64,000 bases of DNA, from positions 1,840,501 through 1,904,500 of the forward strand of contig NZ_CP032621.1 of the NCBI RefSeq assembly GCF_003627155.1, in the 5' to 3' direction. The position numbers and the translations under genes are program-made. Shown in pieces: positions 5,603-64,000 of the stretch. Within the stretch, counting starts at the first letter, position 1; each line of letters begins with the position of its first letter. The notes beneath the pieces are model-generated. The model made no database searches, was not told where the DNA came from, and saw only the letters and a list, made by a program, of their open reading frames with translations. This stretch comes from Streptococcus gwangjuense (GTDB taxonomy: Bacteria > Bacillota > Bacilli > Lactobacillales > Streptococcaceae).

Positions 5603-8035
5603 ATGAACTATTCAAAAGCATTGAATGAATGTATCGAAAGTGCCTACATGGTTGCTGGCCATTTTGGAGCTCGTTATCTAGAGTCTTGGCACTTGTTGAT
5701 TGCCATGTCCAATCACAGTTATAGTGTGGCAGGGGCAACTTTAAATGATTATCCATATGAGATGGATCGTTTAGAAGAAGTCGCTTTGGAACTGACTGAA
5801 ACGGACTATAGCCAGGATGAAACCTTCACGGAATTGCCGTTTTCTCATCGTTTGCAGGTTCTTTTTGATGAAGCGGAATATGTGGCGTCAGTGGTCCATT
5901 CTAAGGTGCTAGGGACGGAGCACGTCCTTTATGCGATTTTACATGATGGCAATGCCTTGGCGACTCGTATCTTGGAGAGGGCTGGTTTTTCTTATGAAGA
6001 CAAGAAAGATCAGGTTAAGATTGCTGCCCTTCGTCGAAATTTAGAAGAACGGGCAGGCTGGACTCGAGAAGACCTCAAGGCTTTACGCCAACGTCATCGT
6101 ACAGTAGCTGACAAGCAAAATTCTATGGCTAATATGATGGGCATGCCCCAGACTCCGAGCGGTGGTCTTGAGGACTATACGCATGATTTGACAGAGCAAG
6201 CGCGTTCTGGCAAGTTGGAGCCAGTCATCGGTCGGGACAAGGAAATCTCGCGTATGATTCAAATCTTGAGTCGGAAGACAAAGAATAATCCTGTCTTGGT
6301 TGGGGATGCTGGTGTCGGGAAAACAGCTCTGGCGCTTGGGCTTGCCCAGCGTATTGCTAGTGGTGATGTACCTGCAGAAATGGCTAAGATGCGCGTGTTA
6401 GAGCTTGATTTGATGAATGTTGTTGCAGGGACACGTTTCCGTGGTGACTTTGAAGAACGCATGAACAATATCATCAAGGATATTGAAGAAGATGGCCAAG
6501 TAATCCTCTTTATCGATGAACTTCATACCATCATGGGTTCTGGTAGTGGGATTGACTCAACTCTAGATGCGGCCAATATCTTGAAGCCAGCCTTAGCGCG
6601 TGGAACTTTGAGAACGGTTGGTGCGACTACTCAGGAAGAATATCAAAAACATATCGAAAAAGATGCGGCCCTTTCTCGTCGTTTCGCTAAAGTGACGATT
6701 GAAGAACCAAGTGTGGCAGACAGTATGACTATTTTGCAAGGTTTGAAGGTGACTTATGAGAAACATCACCGTGTGCAAATCACAGATGAAGCGGTTGAAA
6801 CAGCGGTCAAGATGGCTCATCGTTACTTGACTAGCCGTCACTTACCAGATTCTGCTATCGACCTCTTGGATGAGGCAGCAGCAACAGTGCAAAATAAGGC
6901 TAAGCATGTAAAAGCAGACGATTCAGGTTTGAGTCCAGCTGACAAGGCCTTGATGGATGGTAAGTGGGAACAGGCAGCTCAGCTAATTGCAAAAGAAGAG
7001 GAAGTGCCTGTTTATAAAGACTTGGTGACAGAGTCTGATATTTTGACCACCTTGAGTCGCTTGTCAGGTATCCCCGTTCAAAAACTGACTCAGACTGATG
7101 CTAAGAAATACTTAAACTTGGAAGCTGAACTGCACAAACGTGTCATCGGTCAAGATCAAGCTGTTTCAAGCATTAGCCGTGCGATTCGCCGCAACCAGTC
7201 AGGGATTCGCAGTCACAAGCGTCCGATTGGTTCCTTTATGTTCCTAGGACCTACAGGTGTCGGTAAGACCGAATTGGCCAAGGTTTTGGCAGAAGTTCTT
7301 TTTGACGACGAATCAGCCCTTATCCGCTTTGATATGAGTGAGTATATGGAGAAATTCGCAGCTAGCCGTCTTAATGGAGCTCCTCCGGGCTATGTGGGTT
7401 ATGAAGAAGGTGGGGAGTTGACCGAGAAAGTTCGCAACAAACCCTATTCCGTTCTCCTCTTTGACGAGGTAGAGAAGGCCCACCCAGATATCTTTAATGT
7501 TCTCTTGCAGGTTCTGGATGACGGTGTCTTGACAGATAGCAAGGGACGCAAGGTCGACTTTTCAAATACCATTATCATCATGACGTCAAATCTTGGTGCG
7601 ACAGCCCTTCGGGATGACAAGACCGTCGGATTTGGGGCTAAGGATATTCGTTTTGACCAGGAAAATATGGAAAAACGCATGTTTGAAGAGTTGAAAAAGG
7701 CTTATAGACCTGAATTTATTAACCGTATTGATGAAAAGGTGGTCTTCCATAGCCTTTCTAGCGACCATATGCAGGAAGTAGTGAAGATTATGGTCAAACC
7801 TTTAGTGGCAAGTTTGGCTGAAAAAGGTATTGACTTGAAATTACAAGCTTCAGCACTGAAATTATTGGCAAATCAAGGATATGATCCAGAGATGGGAGCT
7901 CGTCCACTTCGCAGAACCCTACAAACAGAAGTGGAAGACAAGTTGGCAGAACTTCTTCTCAAGGGAGAACTAGTGGCAGGTAAGACACTTAAGATTGGTG
8001 TCAAAGCTGGTCAATTAAAATTTGATATTGCTTAA
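5603..8035 (+). CDS. clpC: AAA+ unfoldase ClpC
   Basis: Hsp100 protein of 810 aa that unfolds substrates and feeds them to ClpP, with adaptors. The N-terminal double Clp-N repeat is seen (residues about 1-140). The first AAA+ module has Walker [10 protein letters not shown] near residue 234 and Walker [12 protein letters not shown] middle region follows, then the second AAA+ module with Walker [10 protein letters not shown] near residue 549, Walker [13 protein letters not shown] and sensor segment [12 protein letters not shown]-terminal D2-small domain ends with the GARPLRR sensor-2 arginine. It is co-transcribed with ctsR and terminated right after. This gene is the anchor for cbpA/TCS06 in pneumococcus; those genes are not found here. 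Confidence 0.95.
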
Positions 8036-8041
8036 AAATGG

Positions 8042-12686: not shown

Positions 12687-13667
12687 TTATGCCTTATCCA
12701 ACTGCAAGAGAGCCTCAATCTCTGTCAGAGTGCTAGCTTGTGAAATGGCTCCACGGAGTTTGGCTGCGCCAGATGTTCCACGGAGGTAGTGAGGAGCGAG
12801 ACCACGAAATTCACGAACTGCTACGTTTTCCCCTTTGAGGTTAATCAAACGTTTCAAGTGTTCGTAGGCGATTTTCATCTTGTCTTCAAAGGTCAAATCA
12901 GGGAGGATTTCTCCTGTTTCAAAGTAATGGTTGATTTGGTTGAAGAGGTAGGGATTTCCCATAGCAGCGCGGCCAATCATGACTGCGTCAGCACCGACTT
13001 CTTCGATACGTTGTTTGGCTTCTTGAACCGTACGAATGTCACCGTTAGCGATAAATGGAATCTTGGTGAGGGCCTGGGCAACCTTATGAAGGGTCTCAAG
13101 GTCTGCGTGGCCTGTGTACATTTGTTCACGGGTACGGCCATGCATAGCGAGGGCAGAAACACCTGCAGCTTCAGCAGCGAGGGCATTTTCTACTGCAAGA
13201 GACGGGTCAGCCCAGCCTGTTCGCATTTTGACAGTAAGTGGGATATCAAGGACAGATTGGACCTTGTTGATGATAGAGTAAATCTTATCTGGGTCCTTGA
13301 GCCACATAGCGCCAGCTTCGTTCTTCACGATTTTGTTAACTGGACAGCCCATGTTGATATCCACGATATCGGTTTTGGTGTTTTCTTGGATGAATTCTGC
13401 TGCGCGTGCTAGGCTGTCTTCATCACTACCAAAAAGTTGGATAGAAACAGGGTTTTCGCCTTCATCGATATGAAGCATGTGCAGGGTTTTTTCGTTGTTG
13501 TATTGGATGCCCTTGTCAGAGACCATTTCCATGACAACGAGTCCAGCTCCGAGCTCTTTTGCAATAGTACGAAAGGCTGAGTTGGTCACGCCAGCCATGG
13601 GTGCTAAAACGGTACGATTGGGAATCTCAACATTGCCAATCATAAAGGGTGTATTAAGATTTGTCAC
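12687..13667 (-). CDS. dusB: tRNA-dihydrouridine synthase
   Basis: FMN-dependent reductase of tRNA uridines, 326 aa. I place the start at the GTG at 13667, which has GGAGG upstream and overlaps the end of hslO by 14 nt. The longer ATG at 13742 lies inside hslO and lacks a ribosome site. Motifs: [14 protein letters not shown] near the N-terminus, the catalytic Cys in [34 protein letters not shown] and IANGDI / [15 protein letters not shown], all typical of the Dus family. It is part of the hslO-dusB-isochorismatase operon. Confidence 0.92.
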
Positions 13668-59484: not shown

Positions 59485-60132
59485 ATGAAATCAACAACTA
59501 AAAAGATTAAAACAACTCTTGCAGGAGTAGCTGCCTTGTTTGCAGTATTTGCTCCATCATTTGTATCTGCTCAAGAATCATCAACTTACACTGTTAAAGA
59601 AGGTGATACACTTTCAGAAATCGCTGAAACTCACAACACAACTGTTGAGAGATTGGCAGAAAACAACCACATTGACAACATCCATTTGATTTATGTTGGT
59701 CAAGAGTTGGTTATCGATGGTCCTGTAGCACCTGTTGCAACACCAGCGCCAACTACTTATGCAGCACCAGCTGCTCAAGATGAAACTGTTTCAGCTCCAG
59801 TAGCAGAAACTACAGAAGTAGCAGAAGAAGCTCCAGTGGCAAGCGCTCCTGTAACAGAAGAATCGGTTGCTACAACAGAAGCTTCAGCACCAGCTTCAAC
59901 TGTAAGTGGATCTGAAGCAGAAGCTAAAGAATGGATCGCTCAAAAAGAATCAGGTGGTAGCTATACAGCTACAAACGGCCAATACATTGGACGTTACCAA
60001 TTGACAGATTCATACTTGAACGGTGACTACTCAGCTGAAAACCAAGAACGTGTGGCAGATGCCTATGTTGCAGGACGCTACGGTTCATGGACTGCTGCTA
60101 AAAACTTCTGGCTTAACAACGGTTGGTATTAA
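59485..60132 (+). CDS. Secreted LysM protein with Apf/transglycosylase-like C-terminus
   Basis: A 215-aa secreted wall protein. Signal peptide cleaved after V-S-A (about residue 29). One LysM domain (residues about 34-78, Y-T-V-K-E-G-D-T-L-S-E-I-A) binds peptidoglycan. An Ala/Pro/Thr/Glu linker follows, then a C-terminal domain (A-K-E-W-I-A-Q-K-E-S-G-G-S-Y-T-A onward, ending W-L-N-N-G-W-Y) of the Apf/IsaA transglycosylase-like type with candidate catalytic Glu in K-E-S-G-G. -10 TATGAT at 59448-59453; the -35 is weak, which suggests an activator. A damaged copy of its 3' end lies 1.3 kb downstream. Confidence 0.9.
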   Translation: MKSTTKKIKTTLAGVAALFAVFAPSFVSAQESSTYTVKEGDTLSEIAETHNTTVERLAENNHIDNIHLIYVGQELVIDGPVAPVATPAPTTYAAPAAQDETVSAPVAETTEVAEEAPVASAPVTEESVATTEASAPASTVSGSEAEAKEWIAQKESGGSYTATNGQYIGRYQLTDSYLNGDYSAENQERVADAYVAGRYGSWTAAKNFWLNNGWY

Positions 60133-60219: not shown

Positions 60220-61116
60220 TTACGGCTGACGAGATTCTGGAGTTTCTCCAGCTGAATTAGTGCGATTATTACTGTTAGTATCGCGAACCTCGGCATTATT
60301 ACTATTATTATTGGTATTCGTATCTCCTTGGGTTCCTGCAGTATCAGTAGCTTGATCTCGTGTATTGACAGCAGTGTTTCCCCCGCTTCTAGCACTATCA
60401 GATGAATATTGCTCGCTTACAGGTACTTGTGAATTATATCTGTTCCCATTTGACTCAGTATAGTTTGGAGTGTAGCTACCTCCTTCTGAAGAATAGCTTT
60501 CTCTTCCCTCAACGTTACTAGTCGTTTCTGTTTCTTTTTTATTAGACTTTTGTTCTTCTTCTTTTTTGGTCAAGACTTCAGCTTGCTTTTGGAATTTTGA
60601 AATCAGTTCTTGAATGGGTTTTATTTTTTCATCAATAGTAGCTTGTTCGCTTGTGGAGTTGACACTTTTAATAATTTCTAGTATCTTTTGTAAGGAAGTG
60701 ATGGCTGTTTCAAGTGCTTGTTTATCTTCAAACTGGCTATCGGATTCCTTTATATCCAATTTTAAAGCTTTTTCAGTATAATGATTAGTGATTTTATCGG
60801 CCGTAGAAGTAAGAAAATCTGTTAATGTCTTTTTGCCTTCGTCAGTGGTAGGCTTTAATTCTTGAATTTTTTTCCAATCCTCTATAATCGTTTCAGAATC
60901 AATATTGAAGTTTTTAATAGCATTTTTTACTTGTTCGACATCTTGTCCATCCTTATGTTGTTTGCTGAGAGCGATGTTCCCTCTCTCTGCTTGGATATGT
61001 TCTTGATGAATGACTAAGCCTATTAAAAGTCCAAGACCTACAACAATAATGATAGTAAAAATGGTATTTTTTGATTTTAGGATATCTTTGTAGTTTTTCA
61101 CAATCGTTCTACGCAC
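60220..61116 (-). CDS. Membrane-anchored secreted low-complexity protein, unknown
   Basis: A 298-aa protein with one N-terminal membrane helix (residues about 18-36). An extracellular coiled-coil-like part (residues about 50-195, Lys/Glu/Ile-rich) follows, then a disordered Ser/Asn/Gly/Thr-rich tail (residues about 200-298). No LPXTG. I do not recognise a family. The start is doubtful: GTG 61116 has no ribosome site, GTG 61101 is an alternative, and the only strong site (GGAGGAGGG) precedes an in-frame ATG at 61143 that runs into TAA three codons later. Possibly an allele with a damaged start, or a gene with a leader peptide. Confidence 0.65.
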   Translation of the reverse strand: MRRTIVKNYKDILKSKNTIFTIIIVVGLGLLIGLVIHQEHIQAERGNIALSKQHKDGQDVEQVKNAIKNFNIDSETIIEDWKKIQELKPTTDEGKKTLTDFLTSTADKITNHYTEKALKLDIKESDSQFEDKQALETAITSLQKILEIIKSVNSTSEQATIDEKIKPIQELISKFQKQAEVLTKKEEEQKSNKKETETTSNVEGRESYSSEGGSYTPNYTESNGNRYNSQVPVSEQYSSDSARSGGNTAVNTRDQATDTAGTQGDTNTNNNSNNAEVRDTNSNNRTNSAGETPESRQP

Positions 61117-61143: not shown

Positions 61144-61424
61144 GTACGCCCTCCTCCTCATTATAGTATATCATTTTTAGCTTATTTTATAAATAAGTTT
61201 ATAAGTAGAATCGAGATTTAACTGTTCATTGCCCTTTTTGTAATTATATTTCCGTTTCTATCAAAGAGAATATTAGATTATCAGCCTCTTTCTTGTCGTT
61301 AAAAAAGTGAGATATATTGACTTTTGAAAAAATGTCATAATTGAGTTGGGATAAATGTAAAAGTAAAACTTTGTCGTTAAATCGTTCGGCGATTCATGGT
61401 GACATGGACACGTAGTAGTAAGCG
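61144..61424. other. Gene-free AT-rich interval
   Basis: Contains TATACT/TATAAT-like -10 elements (complement of about 61163-61171) for the leftward gene and its GGAGGAGGG site. The remainder is AT-rich, and I find no convincing ORF or RNA. Confidence 0.4.
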
Positions 61425-61479
61425 CACTATGTGGCTTGGCAGAGCTAAAAACTTTTGGCTTAACAACGGCTGGTATTAA
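61425..61479 (+). pseudogene. 3' remnant of a second LysM/Apf-like gene
   Basis: The end of this segment encodes A-K-N-F-W-L-N-N-G-W-Y-stop followed by AAGAAATA. This is almost base for base the end of the LysM gene at 60090-60140. Upstream, recognisable bases (C-T-A-T-G-T-G-G-C-T-T-G-G) are out of frame, and the rest of the gene is gone. Confidence 0.75.
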
Positions 61480-61504
61480 GAAATAACGAATAGAATAATA
61501 TGAA

Positions 61505-61532
61505 AAGGTCGAGAAAATCCCTCGACTTTTTA
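61505..61532. terminator. Bidirectional terminator
   Basis: GGTCGAG / CTCGAC hairpin with T's on the plus strand and A's before it, usable by the leftward rgg gene and any rightward remnant transcript. Confidence 0.8.
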
Positions 61533-62393
61533 TATTTTCTTCGGTTGATAATAGGTCTCTACTTCTTTTTTGAGATGAGACAGCATAGAAGTTTCCTCGG
61601 TCAGCTCTAGAAGTGAGAAACCTTTTTGGATAAGTTTCGCATCATCCGTACAAATCCCGATACGGACATAGCAGATAGCAAGCCTATCGTAGCTTTTCTT
61701 GTTCTTAGCGTCCTCTAGTAAAGTATAGCAGATTTGTTGGCACATGTTTTTGTCTTGATTGTATAAGTAAATGGTGGAAAGGTTGAGTAGGATTGCTACT
61801 CGCAGTTCATATAGATGTTGATAGTTTTTATAGACTTCCAAGCGTTGCAATATTTTTTCAGTGATGAGATGGAGGTGTTCAATGGGAAAGCTAAAAAGGA
61901 TGGTATTGAGGATTTTTAGGTCATTTTCATACCATGTATCTTGTTTTTCAATCTTCTCCCAAAGCTTGTTGATAGTCTGTTTCACTTGGTCTGACAGTTC
62001 TCCAGTCCCATGTTGACGGAGATAAATAACAACTTCCAGCATATCCCTGATTTCTTCTATAGGTAGGTCGTGGCGGGTCTTGAGATAATTTTGGCATTTT
62101 TGAAATAGTTTTTCGAGTTCACTAGTCCCTAGGATTGAGCTCATATTGAGATAGGTTTGCCTGATTTCTGTTCGTTGGCTAGGTTGATAGAGATGGCAGA
62201 TATAGTCAAACTCTTCAAAACTCATATTGATTTGCCGGAGAAGAAACTCCATATTTTCATATTTGGGAGTTACCTTGCCGCTTTCAATCTTTGATAGGCT
62301 GGTTCTTGAAATGACATTTCCACAGACCTCTTCTTGGGTCAATCCTTTTGACTCGCGTATTTGTTTATAGACCTTTCCGAAATCATAACGCAT
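61530..62393 (-). CDS. Rgg-family quorum-sensing regulator
   Basis: A 287-aa protein with an N-terminal XRE helix-turn-helix (residues about 7-62, Y-K-Q-I-R-E-S-K-G-L-T-Q-E-E-V and R-T-S-L-S-K-I-E-S-G-K). A C-terminal all-helical, TPR-like region (residues about 70-287) follows, the layout of Rgg/RRNPP receptors that bind imported short peptides. RBS AAGGAG. Divergent from a 28-codon pheromone-like gene and next to a lactococcin-972-type bacteriocin, so it most likely activates both once the peptide accumulates. A GTTAAC repeat lies 23 nt upstream of its ATG, suggesting autoregulation. Confidence 0.9.
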   Translation of the reverse strand: MRYDFGKVYKQIRESKGLTQEEVCGNVISRTSLSKIESGKVTPKYENMEFLLRQINMSFEEFDYICHLYQPSQRTEIRQTYLNMSSILGTSELEKLFQKCQNYLKTRHDLPIEEIRDMLEVVIYLRQHGTGELSDQVKQTINKLWEKIEKQDTWYENDLKILNTILFSFPIEHLHLITEKILQRLEVYKNYQHLYELRVAILLNLSTIYLYNQDKNMCQQICYTLLEDAKNKKSYDRLAICYVRIGICTDDAKLIQKGFSLLELTEETSMLSHLKKEVETYYQPKKI

Positions 62394-62408
62394 AATTTTC
62401 TCCTTTTC

Positions 62409-62521
62409 GTGAAAAAGTTAACAAATAATAAAATCCTATTAAAAATATTGTATCATAGTAACAGGGATAGTAAAAAAGAAAACTAAAATAATGTGTGAAA
62501 AAAGTTAACTAATTTTAAAAT
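62409..62521. promoter_or_regulatory. Repeated GTTAAC motif between rgg and peptide gene
   Basis: The sequence GTGAAAAAGTTAACAAAT (62409 onward) recurs as GTGAAAAAAGTTAACTAAT (62495 onward), 86 bp apart. The right copy is centred at about -42 relative to the start predicted from TATACT (62537-62542), a classic activator position. No -35 is seen there. Candidate Rgg boxes. Confidence 0.65.
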
Positions 62522-62575
62522 AGAGTAAAGAAGAAGTATACTATAGATACAAAATACAGATAGGAAGGAAAGAGT

Positions 62576-62662
62576 ATGAATAAAAAAGTTTTTCGCTTTT
62601 TAGTTGTTCTTGCGTTTTTATTCAGCATTGCTACGGTTTTCCCATGGAGATGGCCGATATAA
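62576..62662 (+). CDS. Short pheromone-like peptide with C-terminal Trp-x-Trp
   Basis: A 28-codon ORF behind AGGAAGGAAAG. It encodes a basic N-terminus (M-N-K-K-V-F-R-F), a hydrophobic core (L-V-V-L-A-F-L-F-S-I-A-T-V) and the end F-P-W-R-W-P-I. Size, charge, hydrophobic leader and position divergent from an Rgg gene match SHP/ComS-type pheromone precursors. The Trp-Arg-Trp end resembles the Trp-x-Trp class reported for the pneumococcal RtgS peptide. The mature peptide would be the last 7-9 residues, imported by Ami/Opp. It is too short for normal gene prediction. Confidence 0.8.
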   Translation: MNKKVFRFLVVLAFLFSIATVFPWRWPI

Positions 62663-62730
62663 TGCGCTAGTTGTAAAAATGAAAGAAACGTGAGTCCAAT
62701 GGACTACGATACTTGTTGATAAATTACTAT

Positions 62731-62751
62731 AGCTGTTTTTACGGAACAGCT
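62731..62751 (+). other. Hairpin ahead of the bacteriocin gene
   Basis: Perfect AGCTGTT (62731-62737) / AACAGCT (62745-62751) with a 7-nt loop and no T run. It lies 23 nt before the bacteriocin ATG, so it may affect mRNA processing or translation. Confidence 0.45.
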
Positions 62752-62774
62752 CTCGATAATAGGAGAAATAAATC

Positions 62775-63059
62775 ATGAGAAAATTAGTTAAAATTGGTAT
62801 TGCATCTTTAATGGTATGTGGTATACTTGCTACTACAAATGCTTTAGCAGTATGGGTTGATGGTGGTCAATGGAACTATGGAGTAGGTTGGACAGGAACT
62901 TTTGGATATTCTGATTATTTACATTCTACTCGATCTCATACAGCAACTGTCAAGCATGGAGGTAGAATCTCTAAGGATCGTGAAGATCCCGAGGTTTGGG
63001 CTAAAGCTTCCCTTAATAAAATTCCGCCAACAGGATTAGAATATTTCTATGGATTTTAA
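62775..63059 (+). CDS. Lactococcin 972-family bacteriocin (streptococcin-like)
   Basis: A 94-aa precursor: Sec signal peptide (residues 1-25, cleaved after N-A-L-A) and a mature part of about 69 aa starting V-W-V-D-G-G. The family pattern is clear: G-G-x-W-x-Y-G-V-G near the start, Y-S-D-Y-L-H-S-T-R-S-H-T-A-T-V, and W-A-K-A-S near the end. Lactococcin 972 blocks septum formation by binding lipid II. RBS TAGGAGAA. It follows the pheromone-like gene and precedes a DUF1430 gene, the usual bacteriocin-partner order. No cysteine in the mature part. Confidence 0.92.
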   Translation: MRKLVKIGIASLMVCGILATTNALAVWVDGGQWNYGVGWTGTFGYSDYLHSTRSHTATVKHGGRISKDREDPEVWAKASLNKIPPTGLEYFYGF

Positions 63060-63069
63060 GTGAAATTTT

Positions 63070-63090
63070 CCCTCTCCTATTAGGAGAGGG
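63070..63090 (+). other. Strong intercistronic hairpin
   Basis: CCCTCTCCTA TTAGGAGAGGG forms a near perfect stem. It lacks a T run, so it is more likely a stabiliser or partial block that favours bacteriocin over partner expression than a full terminator. Confidence 0.6.
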
Positions 63091-63113
63091 AGAACTTTAG
63101 TGGAGGTACTTTT

Positions 63114-64000
63114 ATGAAAAAAATCAGTCATCTTTGTATGTTTCTGCTGTTGCTGTGTACCACTTTTTTTGTTTTTAATGTAAACTACACACGTGAAGCG
63201 GTTCGGATTCGGGAAATGGGAAAGACTGTAGATTCTTTGGATTTGTATTTGAAAGATATTAACGAACCTGCAGCGTCTGTTCTTCGATTTTTTGAGGATG
63301 TATCAAAGGAGTACAAAGTCTCCATCATCAAAACAGATAGTGGTGATGAGGTAATCAAGTCTGGTGTTTTTGATAAAGATACCTTCCCCTACCAAGAGTT
63401 TGGGATTTCTTCTCTTGATTTTACCACAGATGGTGAAGGAGTCTACAGTAATAAAGAAATTTCTAATAAACTTGGTACGATTCCGACCTTTCTAAAAGCC
63501 AAGCCTATTCAGCTTATGACTTTTCAAACCTATATCAAGGATACATCTCGTAGTTTAAATGGTCGCTATACGATAACTTCTACACAAGAGATGGATAAGG
63601 ATAGGATTGTACAGAAATGGAGCGATTTTTTCAAGATAGACCAGGCTACCTTGCTAGAGCCTACCTATAAAAGTGCAGTGGAAGTCATAAACCGAGATTT
63701 GCTTTTAACTGCCATTGTTTTTGTCTTGGCTATTTTACTTCTTGTGTTAGTAACAGTTTATCAGCCGATGATGGAGATGAAACGAGTGGGGGTTCAAAAG
63801 TTACTTGGTTTTCAAAGCGGGGCGATTTTAGCTGGTTTTGTAAAGACTAATTTTTATCTTCTCTTGGGTGGAAGTCTTGTCATTGACTTGGGACTATTTT
63901 TAGTGCTAGACTACAGGCCAAAACTTCTGTTCCCAAGTTTACTCTTATCCCAATTTCTGCTTTTACAGTTGTATTTGTTCATCAGTTGGCTGACCTACCT
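63114..64000 (+). CDS. DUF1430 bacteriocin-associated membrane protein, 3'-truncated by window
   Basis: The frame is open from ATG 63114 (RBS TGGAGGT) to the window edge, 295 codons visible; the family is usually about 650-700 aa. One N-terminal membrane helix (residues about 5-22), a long extracellular part (about 25-195), then helices at about 203-222, 245-265 and beyond, with M-E-M-K-R-V-G-V-Q-K-L-L-G-F between them. This FtsX-like motif is typical of the bacteriocin-associated integral membrane family (DUF1430). In lactococcin-972 clusters this protein works with an ABC ATPase as immunity/export unit; the ATPase should lie just right of the window. Confidence 0.88.
   Translation, partial: MKKISHLCMFLLLLCTTFFVFNVNYTREAVRIREMGKTVDSLDLYLKDINEPAASVLRFFEDVSKEYKVSIIKTDSGDEVIKSGVFDKDTFPYQEFGISSLDFTTDGEGVYSNKEISNKLGTIPTFLKAKPIQLMTFQTYIKDTSRSLNGRYTITSTQEMDKDRIVQKWSDFFKIDQATLLEPTYKSAVEVINRDLLLTAIVFVLAILLLVLVTVYQPMMEMKRVGVQKLLGFQSGAILAGFVKTNFYLLLGGSLVIDLGLFLVLDYRPKLLFPSLLLSQFLLLQLYLFISWLTY

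Follow-up and report, generated by a model that had tools for sequence, protein, structure and literature searches.

What does an RtgR-type receptor control when the gene behind its pheromone encodes a lactococcin-972 bacteriocin? The question is raised by the right-hand end of a 64,000-nucleotide stretch of Streptococcus gwangjuense DNA (the window; positions 1840501-1904500 of NZ_CP032621.1, a single-contig genome of 1,972,481 bases). There, as a first-pass annotation made from the letters had described, a leftward Rgg regulator is divergent from a 28-codon gene for a peptide ending FPWRWPI, and a lactococcin-972 gene, the only one in the genome, comes next; a TIGR01654 partner gene and an ABC ATPase gene, the latter past the window edge, complete the rightward order. 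Judging by homology and layout, we consider it likely that this is a quorum-sensing circuit of the RtgR/RtgS type (the Rgg/Trp-x-Trp, or Rgg/WxW, group) that autoinduces the lactococcin-972 operon. The locus joins two known kinds of system, and the combination has a precedent in the pneumococcal scb locus.

How close is the pair to RtgR/RtgS? The kinship had been suggested in the first pass, and alignment bears it out. The receptor is identical at 251 of 287 positions (87%) to the Rgg of Streptococcus sp. LQJ-218 (L093), with 60/65 in the DNA-binding part and 191/222 in the rest. By its gene content, the L093 locus is an rtg locus: its 28-amino-acid (aa) precursor has the C-terminus of type A RtgS, and behind it come a 739-aa transporter, whose C39 peptidase domain exceeds the cut-off, an accessory protein and double-glycine-leader peptides. 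In the profile search, the window Rgg exceeded the cut-off for HTH_3 and stayed under those for Rgg_C (23.8 against 27 bits) and RGG_Cterm (15.8 against 36.9); by sequence, it also matches the ComR and PlcR structures. Its nearest named relatives, up to 93% identical, lie on contigs labelled S. mitis and S. pneumoniae, which places the host in the mitis group. A ratio of non-synonymous to synonymous change (pN/pS) of 0.16-0.21 among the relatives indicates purifying selection on the receptor.

The window peptide, MNKKVFRFLVVLAFLFSIATVFPWRWPI, is short and hydrophobic, with WRW near its C-terminus and no Asp or Glu, an absence that is one mark setting RtgS apart (PMC7018657). The published RtgS pheromones are AIIFPWGWPI (type A) and AIIFPWGWSI (type B) (PMC13361665). 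Compared directly with the L093 precursor, the window precursor has 16 of 28 residues in common, and 7 of the last 10, while the middle residue of the motif is Arg here and Gly in RtgS. The coding sequence is conserved, with a pN/pS of 0.33 over 11 distinct DNA alleles (0.45 for the nine MNKKVF alleles alone). Furthermore, when 284 genomes of the genus were searched with an FPWxWP-plus-end pattern (one mismatch allowed), matches were found in 20, and 19 of the 20 matches adjoin an Rgg or Rgg fragment of the window family, the exception being G051.

The likeness to rtg of S. pneumoniae (PMC7018657) extends to a receptor that looks orthologous, a 28-aa precursor ending FPWxWPI, the divergent layout, two operator copies and the same chromosomal interval. 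The difference lies downstream, where rtg has the RtgAB exporter and double-glycine peptides, whereas the window has lactococcin-972, TIGR01654, ABC ATPase and mnmA genes. The same paper proposes the Rgg/WxW group with three named members and leaves other targets open; Rgg1518/SHP1518 and SSA_2251 belong to the same proposed group as the window pair and are linked to other operons. The peptide of one distant locus (L056) closely matches the published end of SHP1518. Its Rgg is 43-44% identical to the window Rgg, and the L056 and L057 loci gave no lactococcin-972 match.

The bacteriocin gene exceeds the cut-offs of both PF09683 (E 2.1e-21) and TIGR01653 (E 2.5e-25), and it also matches the solved lactococcin 972 structure 2LGN (E 1.6e-6). 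Its neighbour is indeed the expected partner gene, at 643 bits for TIGR01654 and over the cut-off; DUF1430, the label that it had been given, scores 18.9 bits, under the 28.2 cut-off. Bacteriocin, partner and ABC ATPase stand in the order of a lactococcin-972 operon, with all three NCBIfam models over cut-off.

Which promoters would the receptor act on? Two operator copies lie between the Rgg and peptide genes (Table 1), the first 28 bases from its -10-like hexamer and the second 27. The second copy is the sole perfect match to the pattern in the whole genome. Among the 22 peptide-bearing promoters in the set of copies described below, with one edit allowed, 19 have two copies and three, of the MDKK type, have one. 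A related motif recurs further afield: of 35 promoters belonging to distant RtgR-like genes (Rgg at most 52% identical to the window Rgg), 12 contain exact GTNANNNNNNTTNAC within 100 bases, against a mean of 0.24 and a maximum of 2 in 500 dinucleotide shuffles, and with one mismatch the count is 23/35 against a shuffle mean of 6.4 and maximum of 14. The rtgS1 promoter is likewise reported to contain a pair of almost identical promoters, induction depending on an inverted repeat (PMC7018657); the resemblance to the window is at the level of this description. A wider operator regulon was rejected. With up to three mismatches, the genome has 33 sites versus 42 for the reversed control, and the lone one-mismatch site sits just after a 461-aa open reading frame (ORF), presumably glutamate dehydrogenase, and not before any gene.

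Table 1. Features of the locus in window coordinates, with outside features given in the coordinates of their own loci
Feature	Position	Strand	Basis
Terminator-like hairpin at the Rgg gene end	61503..61531	+ (match also on -, 61526-61508)	Consensus scan only
RtgR-type Rgg receptor/regulator, 287 aa	61530..62393	-	ORF, profile, structure-sequence and identity comparisons
Operator copy 1, GTGAAAAAGTTAAC (one A short of most relatives)	62409..62422	+	Promoter alignment
TATCAT, -10-like hexamer, promoter 1	62451..62456	+	Promoter alignment
Operator copy 2, GTGAAAAAAGTTAAC	62495..62509	+	Promoter alignment and genome search
TATACT, -10-like hexamer, promoter 2	62537..62542	+	Consensus scan
RtgS-type WxW pheromone precursor, 28 aa	62576..62662	+	ORF, promoter alignment, coding conservation
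Lactococcin-972 family bacteriocin precursor, 94 aa, Sec-type leader (by inspection)	62775..63059	+	Profile and structure matches
Bacteriocin-associated membrane protein (TIGR01654), start; 702 aa in all	63114..64000, continues past the window	+	Profile search
ABC ATPase	L001 7719-8348, outside the window		TIGR03608 L_ocin_972_ABC, 295 bits, over cut-off
RtgR-like regulators of the fourth distant lineage	L195 3829-4689; L219 3902-4762; L225 3961-4833		Peptide in the stretch upstream

By analogy with published work on RtgR/RtgS and lactococcin 972, the 28-aa precursor would be exported and trimmed to a C-terminal peptide of ~8-12 residues around VFPWRWPI, which would be re-imported by an oligopeptide permease and bound by Rgg. 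The complex would activate both promoters through the GTGAAA(A)AAGTTAAC operators and drive the pheromone, bacteriocin, membrane partner and ABC ATPase genes. The bacteriocin would leave via Sec and, as expected of its family, bind lipid II and block septal wall growth in neighbours, and the partner genes may confer immunity. Candidates for steps such as PptAB export and Ami import are present in the genome, which holds an EcsB-family (PptB-like) protein, an M50 protease and six oligopeptide-binding proteins.

Could the bacteriocin instead have a promoter of its own, or be under competence control as streptococcin B is, with the Rgg/peptide pair controlling itself and perhaps other genes? The 113-base gap between the peptide and bacteriocin genes leaves room for this, streptococcin B is driven by ComE independently of ScbR in most pneumococci (PMC11796350), and an in silico survey gives RpoD-type promoters at streptococcin loci (PMC11921387), a point that also counts against autoinduction by the pair. 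A simple scan from 62662 to 62775 found no consensus promoter or terminator on the + strand, in line with the operon layout predicted in the first pass, although such a scan cannot rule out a promoter there; RNA structure between the two genes was not significant (z -1.5). In addition, no ComE-like site was found in the window at up to 3 mismatches (chance expectation 1.3), and peptide and bacteriocin genes are absent together from six related loci. We therefore regard separate control of the bacteriocin as unlikely, and autoinduction through the shared operon as the better reading.

Does the pairing hold among relatives? We compiled 73 loci, namely the window's own, 44 of the 49 loci from one relative search and loci from further genomes. 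After eight exact duplicates had been dropped, their 76 Rgg copies gave 68, at 66-100% identity to the window Rgg; three of these are shortened and stand outside the tree of 65 copies, and L137, which has Rgg fragments only, gave no row. The peptide is present beside 22 of the 68 copies, and lactococcin-972 is among the next three genes of 14. The results show that 13 of these 14 copies have the peptide, compared with 9 of the 54 others (Fisher p 1.9e-7, relatedness ignored). The combination occurs in well separated parts of the tree, among them a branch of S. oralis type, 66% identical, whose pheromone has a form peculiar to it, FFPWGWLL or FFPWGWFL. The locus is not a single hybrid, a form considered in the first pass, since the same triad recurs in several Rgg lineages; that the window arrangement is ancestral is possible.

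Several observations weigh against a simple coupling of pheromone and bacteriocin. The co-occurrence weakens once relatedness is allowed for. On a DNA tree of the 65 full-length copies, the peptide changes 14 times and the bacteriocin nine times; among independent pairs with unlike bacteriocin status, the peptide follows suit in ~5/7 (median p 0.06), and where it is peptide status that differs, the bacteriocin follows suit in ~4/9 (median p 0.125), with the opposite direction averaging 0.0 in both sets. For nine peptide-bearing copies, none of the next three genes is lactococcin-972, and therefore the receptor also serves other cargo. Two of 13 bacteriocin genes have an internal stop (G222 and G127), and the L088 peptide, scored as WxW and peptide-bearing, stops at FPWK. 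The L033 locus was scored as peptide-less despite an RtgS-like sequence; this sequence (7063-7390) ends FPWRWPM, is without the usual start and promoter 2 region and adjoins an Rgg at 67% identity.

These defects might also mean that this strain has a silent or decaying circuit, maintained by hotspot recombination rather than by function. The internal stops, the L033 pheromone without a start region and the 106-aa Rgg fragments of L137 would fit such decay. In the window, on the other hand, the reading frames of receptor, pheromone, bacteriocin, partner and ATPase are uninterrupted, neither operator is missing, and the receptor is under purifying selection across relatives. Decay is accordingly a very improbable account of this strain, and an intact circuit is preferred.

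Is the adjacency confined to this branch? The 284 genomes yielded 105 lactococcin-972 matches in 80 genomes, and we examined 60 neighbourhoods, seven of them picked because an Rgg was already known beside the bacteriocin. An RtgR-like regulator (E <1e-80) is present in nine of the 60 and a same-strand regulator with a weak match in ten; 41 have neither. Two further RtgR-like/lactococcin-972 loci (L045 and L048) were found from the Rgg side. The resulting 11 loci fall into four Rgg lineages that are 30-42% identical to each other, L045 and L048 (55% alike) counting as one; RtgR-like and lactococcin-972 genes therefore stand side by side recurrently, mostly with Trp-bearing peptides. Such peptides occur in members of three lineages (e.g. 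GGGWWSWPLPIINK, DIWRWWGFH and NGWPWSW), whereas the fourth has a different conserved peptide, lacking Trp and ending QPATHLVG. The L193 and L194 peptides have Trp but no strict WxW, the L191 peptide is stopped before the motif, and L197 has no intact peptide or bacteriocin.

The ten weakly matching regulators are taken for the ComR type, and their neighbourhoods (L203, L207, L210-L213, L216-L218 and L227) resemble the layout of scb. At scb, an RRNPP regulator and its peptide control a three-gene lactococcin-972 operon, and there are receivers without a peptide gene; scb differs in its ComR-type regulator, double-Trp peptide, ComRS box and, in most pneumococci, ComE site, and the RtgS peptide did not induce an scb reporter (PMC11796350). 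Might the window hold a ComR/XIP-type circuit of this kind? Both regulators are of the RRNPP class, with Trp-bearing peptides beside a lactococcin-972 operon, and the window Rgg matches ComR structures by sequence. However, the window peptide gene is divergent from its regulator, unlike comS (a distinction drawn in PMC7018657), its motif is WRW and not WW, no scb-type ComRS box occurs within 6 substitutions in 62394-62774, and the regulator is 87% identical to an rtg-locus Rgg. A ComR-type circuit is thus the least credible of the alternatives, and the pair is better placed in the Rgg/WxW group. The claim that the pairing is new stands in part: our literature search, with most subscription journals outside it, found no report coupling an Rgg/WxW pair to a lactococcin-972 locus, but ScbR/SIP at scb is an RRNPP/lactococcin-972 precedent (PMC11796350).

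Which bacteriocin is this? RtgS has been tabulated next to sp_0114 (PMC7595303), one survey found the lactococcin-972 protein SP_0109 in 100% of pneumococci (PMC6722419), and streptococcin C is complete in 571/571 genomes (PMC6120550), a study in which bacteriocin clusters commonly have Rgg and PlcR regulators at their flanks. From position and these prevalence figures, the window bacteriocin is probably streptococcin C. Interval and bacteriocin family are shared with scc (the SP_0109 region), and the L137 gene aligns with the window gene over its full length. The same interval of L137 contains a lactococcin-972 operon and, together with a short argG, an rtg-type region whose RtgS is of type B. 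Its Rgg copies (7721-8041 and 13290-13610) are C-terminal fragments, one beside rtgS type B and one beside lactococcin-972; one operator copy precedes rtgS, and none was found within three substitutions in the 430 bases before the bacteriocin gene.

What, then, do receptors without a pheromone do? No recognizable WxW gene lies beside 46 of the 68 Rgg copies. Every one of the 46 retains TATCAT and, with one edit allowed, an operator copy, 43 of them encode at least 280 aa, and constraint on the receptor is alike in both groups (pN/pS 0.157 for 40 peptide-less copies and 0.207 for 16 carriers, equal-length genes). Six copies (L034, L036, L087, L127, L128 and L129) have neither the pheromone gene nor the bacteriocin gene; 161-184 bases separate their Rgg and partner genes, against the usual ~720, and promoter 1 leads straight into the partner/ABC genes. 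All six genomes lie outside the 20 with an FPWxWP-type pheromone and outside the 80 with lactococcin-972 (the FFPWGWLL form was not searched genome-wide). Related strains that have retained receptor, operator and partner genes may still sense the pheromone of producers, and the six loci are candidate eavesdroppers. There is a parallel in pneumococcal scb: even strains that lack scbS answer the S. pseudopneumoniae peptide via ScbR (PMC11796350). The idea that the six arose by independent deletions was dropped; because the junction looks alike in all of them (five show a second small gap), a single event, whether deletion or insertion, that was spread by recombination explains them equally well.

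Two observations argue against eavesdropping as a general explanation. In 19 of the 46 peptide-less copies, the peptide gene is replaced by a conserved 37-aa hydrophobic ORF (MFKNKELFRVVMIFVIG...; FRVV/FRVI, with a variant in L130), which could be an unrecognised signal; it sits 128-174 bases from the Rgg start (e.g. L079, L103 and L133). Furthermore, L075 has one peptide-less copy and a second copy with a peptide in the same genome, and therefore self-signalling in trans is possible there.

Where might rtg itself have come from? L075, L079 and L082 carry two full-length copies, one after the LysM gene and one after argG/argH, the site where L093 has its rtg locus; the LysM-side copies of L079 and L082 also adjoin partner/ABC genes. 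Because of these double copies, we infer that rtg arose here by duplication, the direction being part of the inference. It is tentatively conceivable that control of lactococcin-972 is an old, recurrent job of the Rgg/WxW family, that rtg is a duplicated receptor with swapped cargo, and that the roughly two-thirds of copies without a signal (46/68) are receivers, selected as an eavesdropping defence that switches on partner/immunity genes.

The surroundings of the locus are variable. The interval from the LysM/serine dehydratase genes to mnmA (L033-L141) is a cargo hotspot, in which the same Rgg is followed, depending on the strain, by lactococcin-972 operons, ABC transporters, leader-bearing unknown proteins, double-glycine peptides or membrane proteins. 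Past the ABC ATPase, the translations read as mnmA, a NUDIX gene and gidA. On the other side, a short ORF (61396-61479) carries a repeat of the C-terminus (AKNFWLNNGWY) of the LysM protein (59485-60132), and a 298-aa membrane-type protein (60220-61116, - strand) sits between the two, as if inserted. No tRNA was found beside the locus.

As of December 2024, how streptococcins A, C and D are controlled was described as unclear (PMC11796350). The window locus supplies a concrete receptor, pheromone, operator and target for this problem, which a single synthetic peptide could put to the test. Most deserving of such work are the receivers without a signal, which make bacteriocin eavesdropping testable in commensal streptococci. 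If true, eavesdropping defence would span commensal streptococci, with partner/immunity genes answering a neighbour's pheromone.

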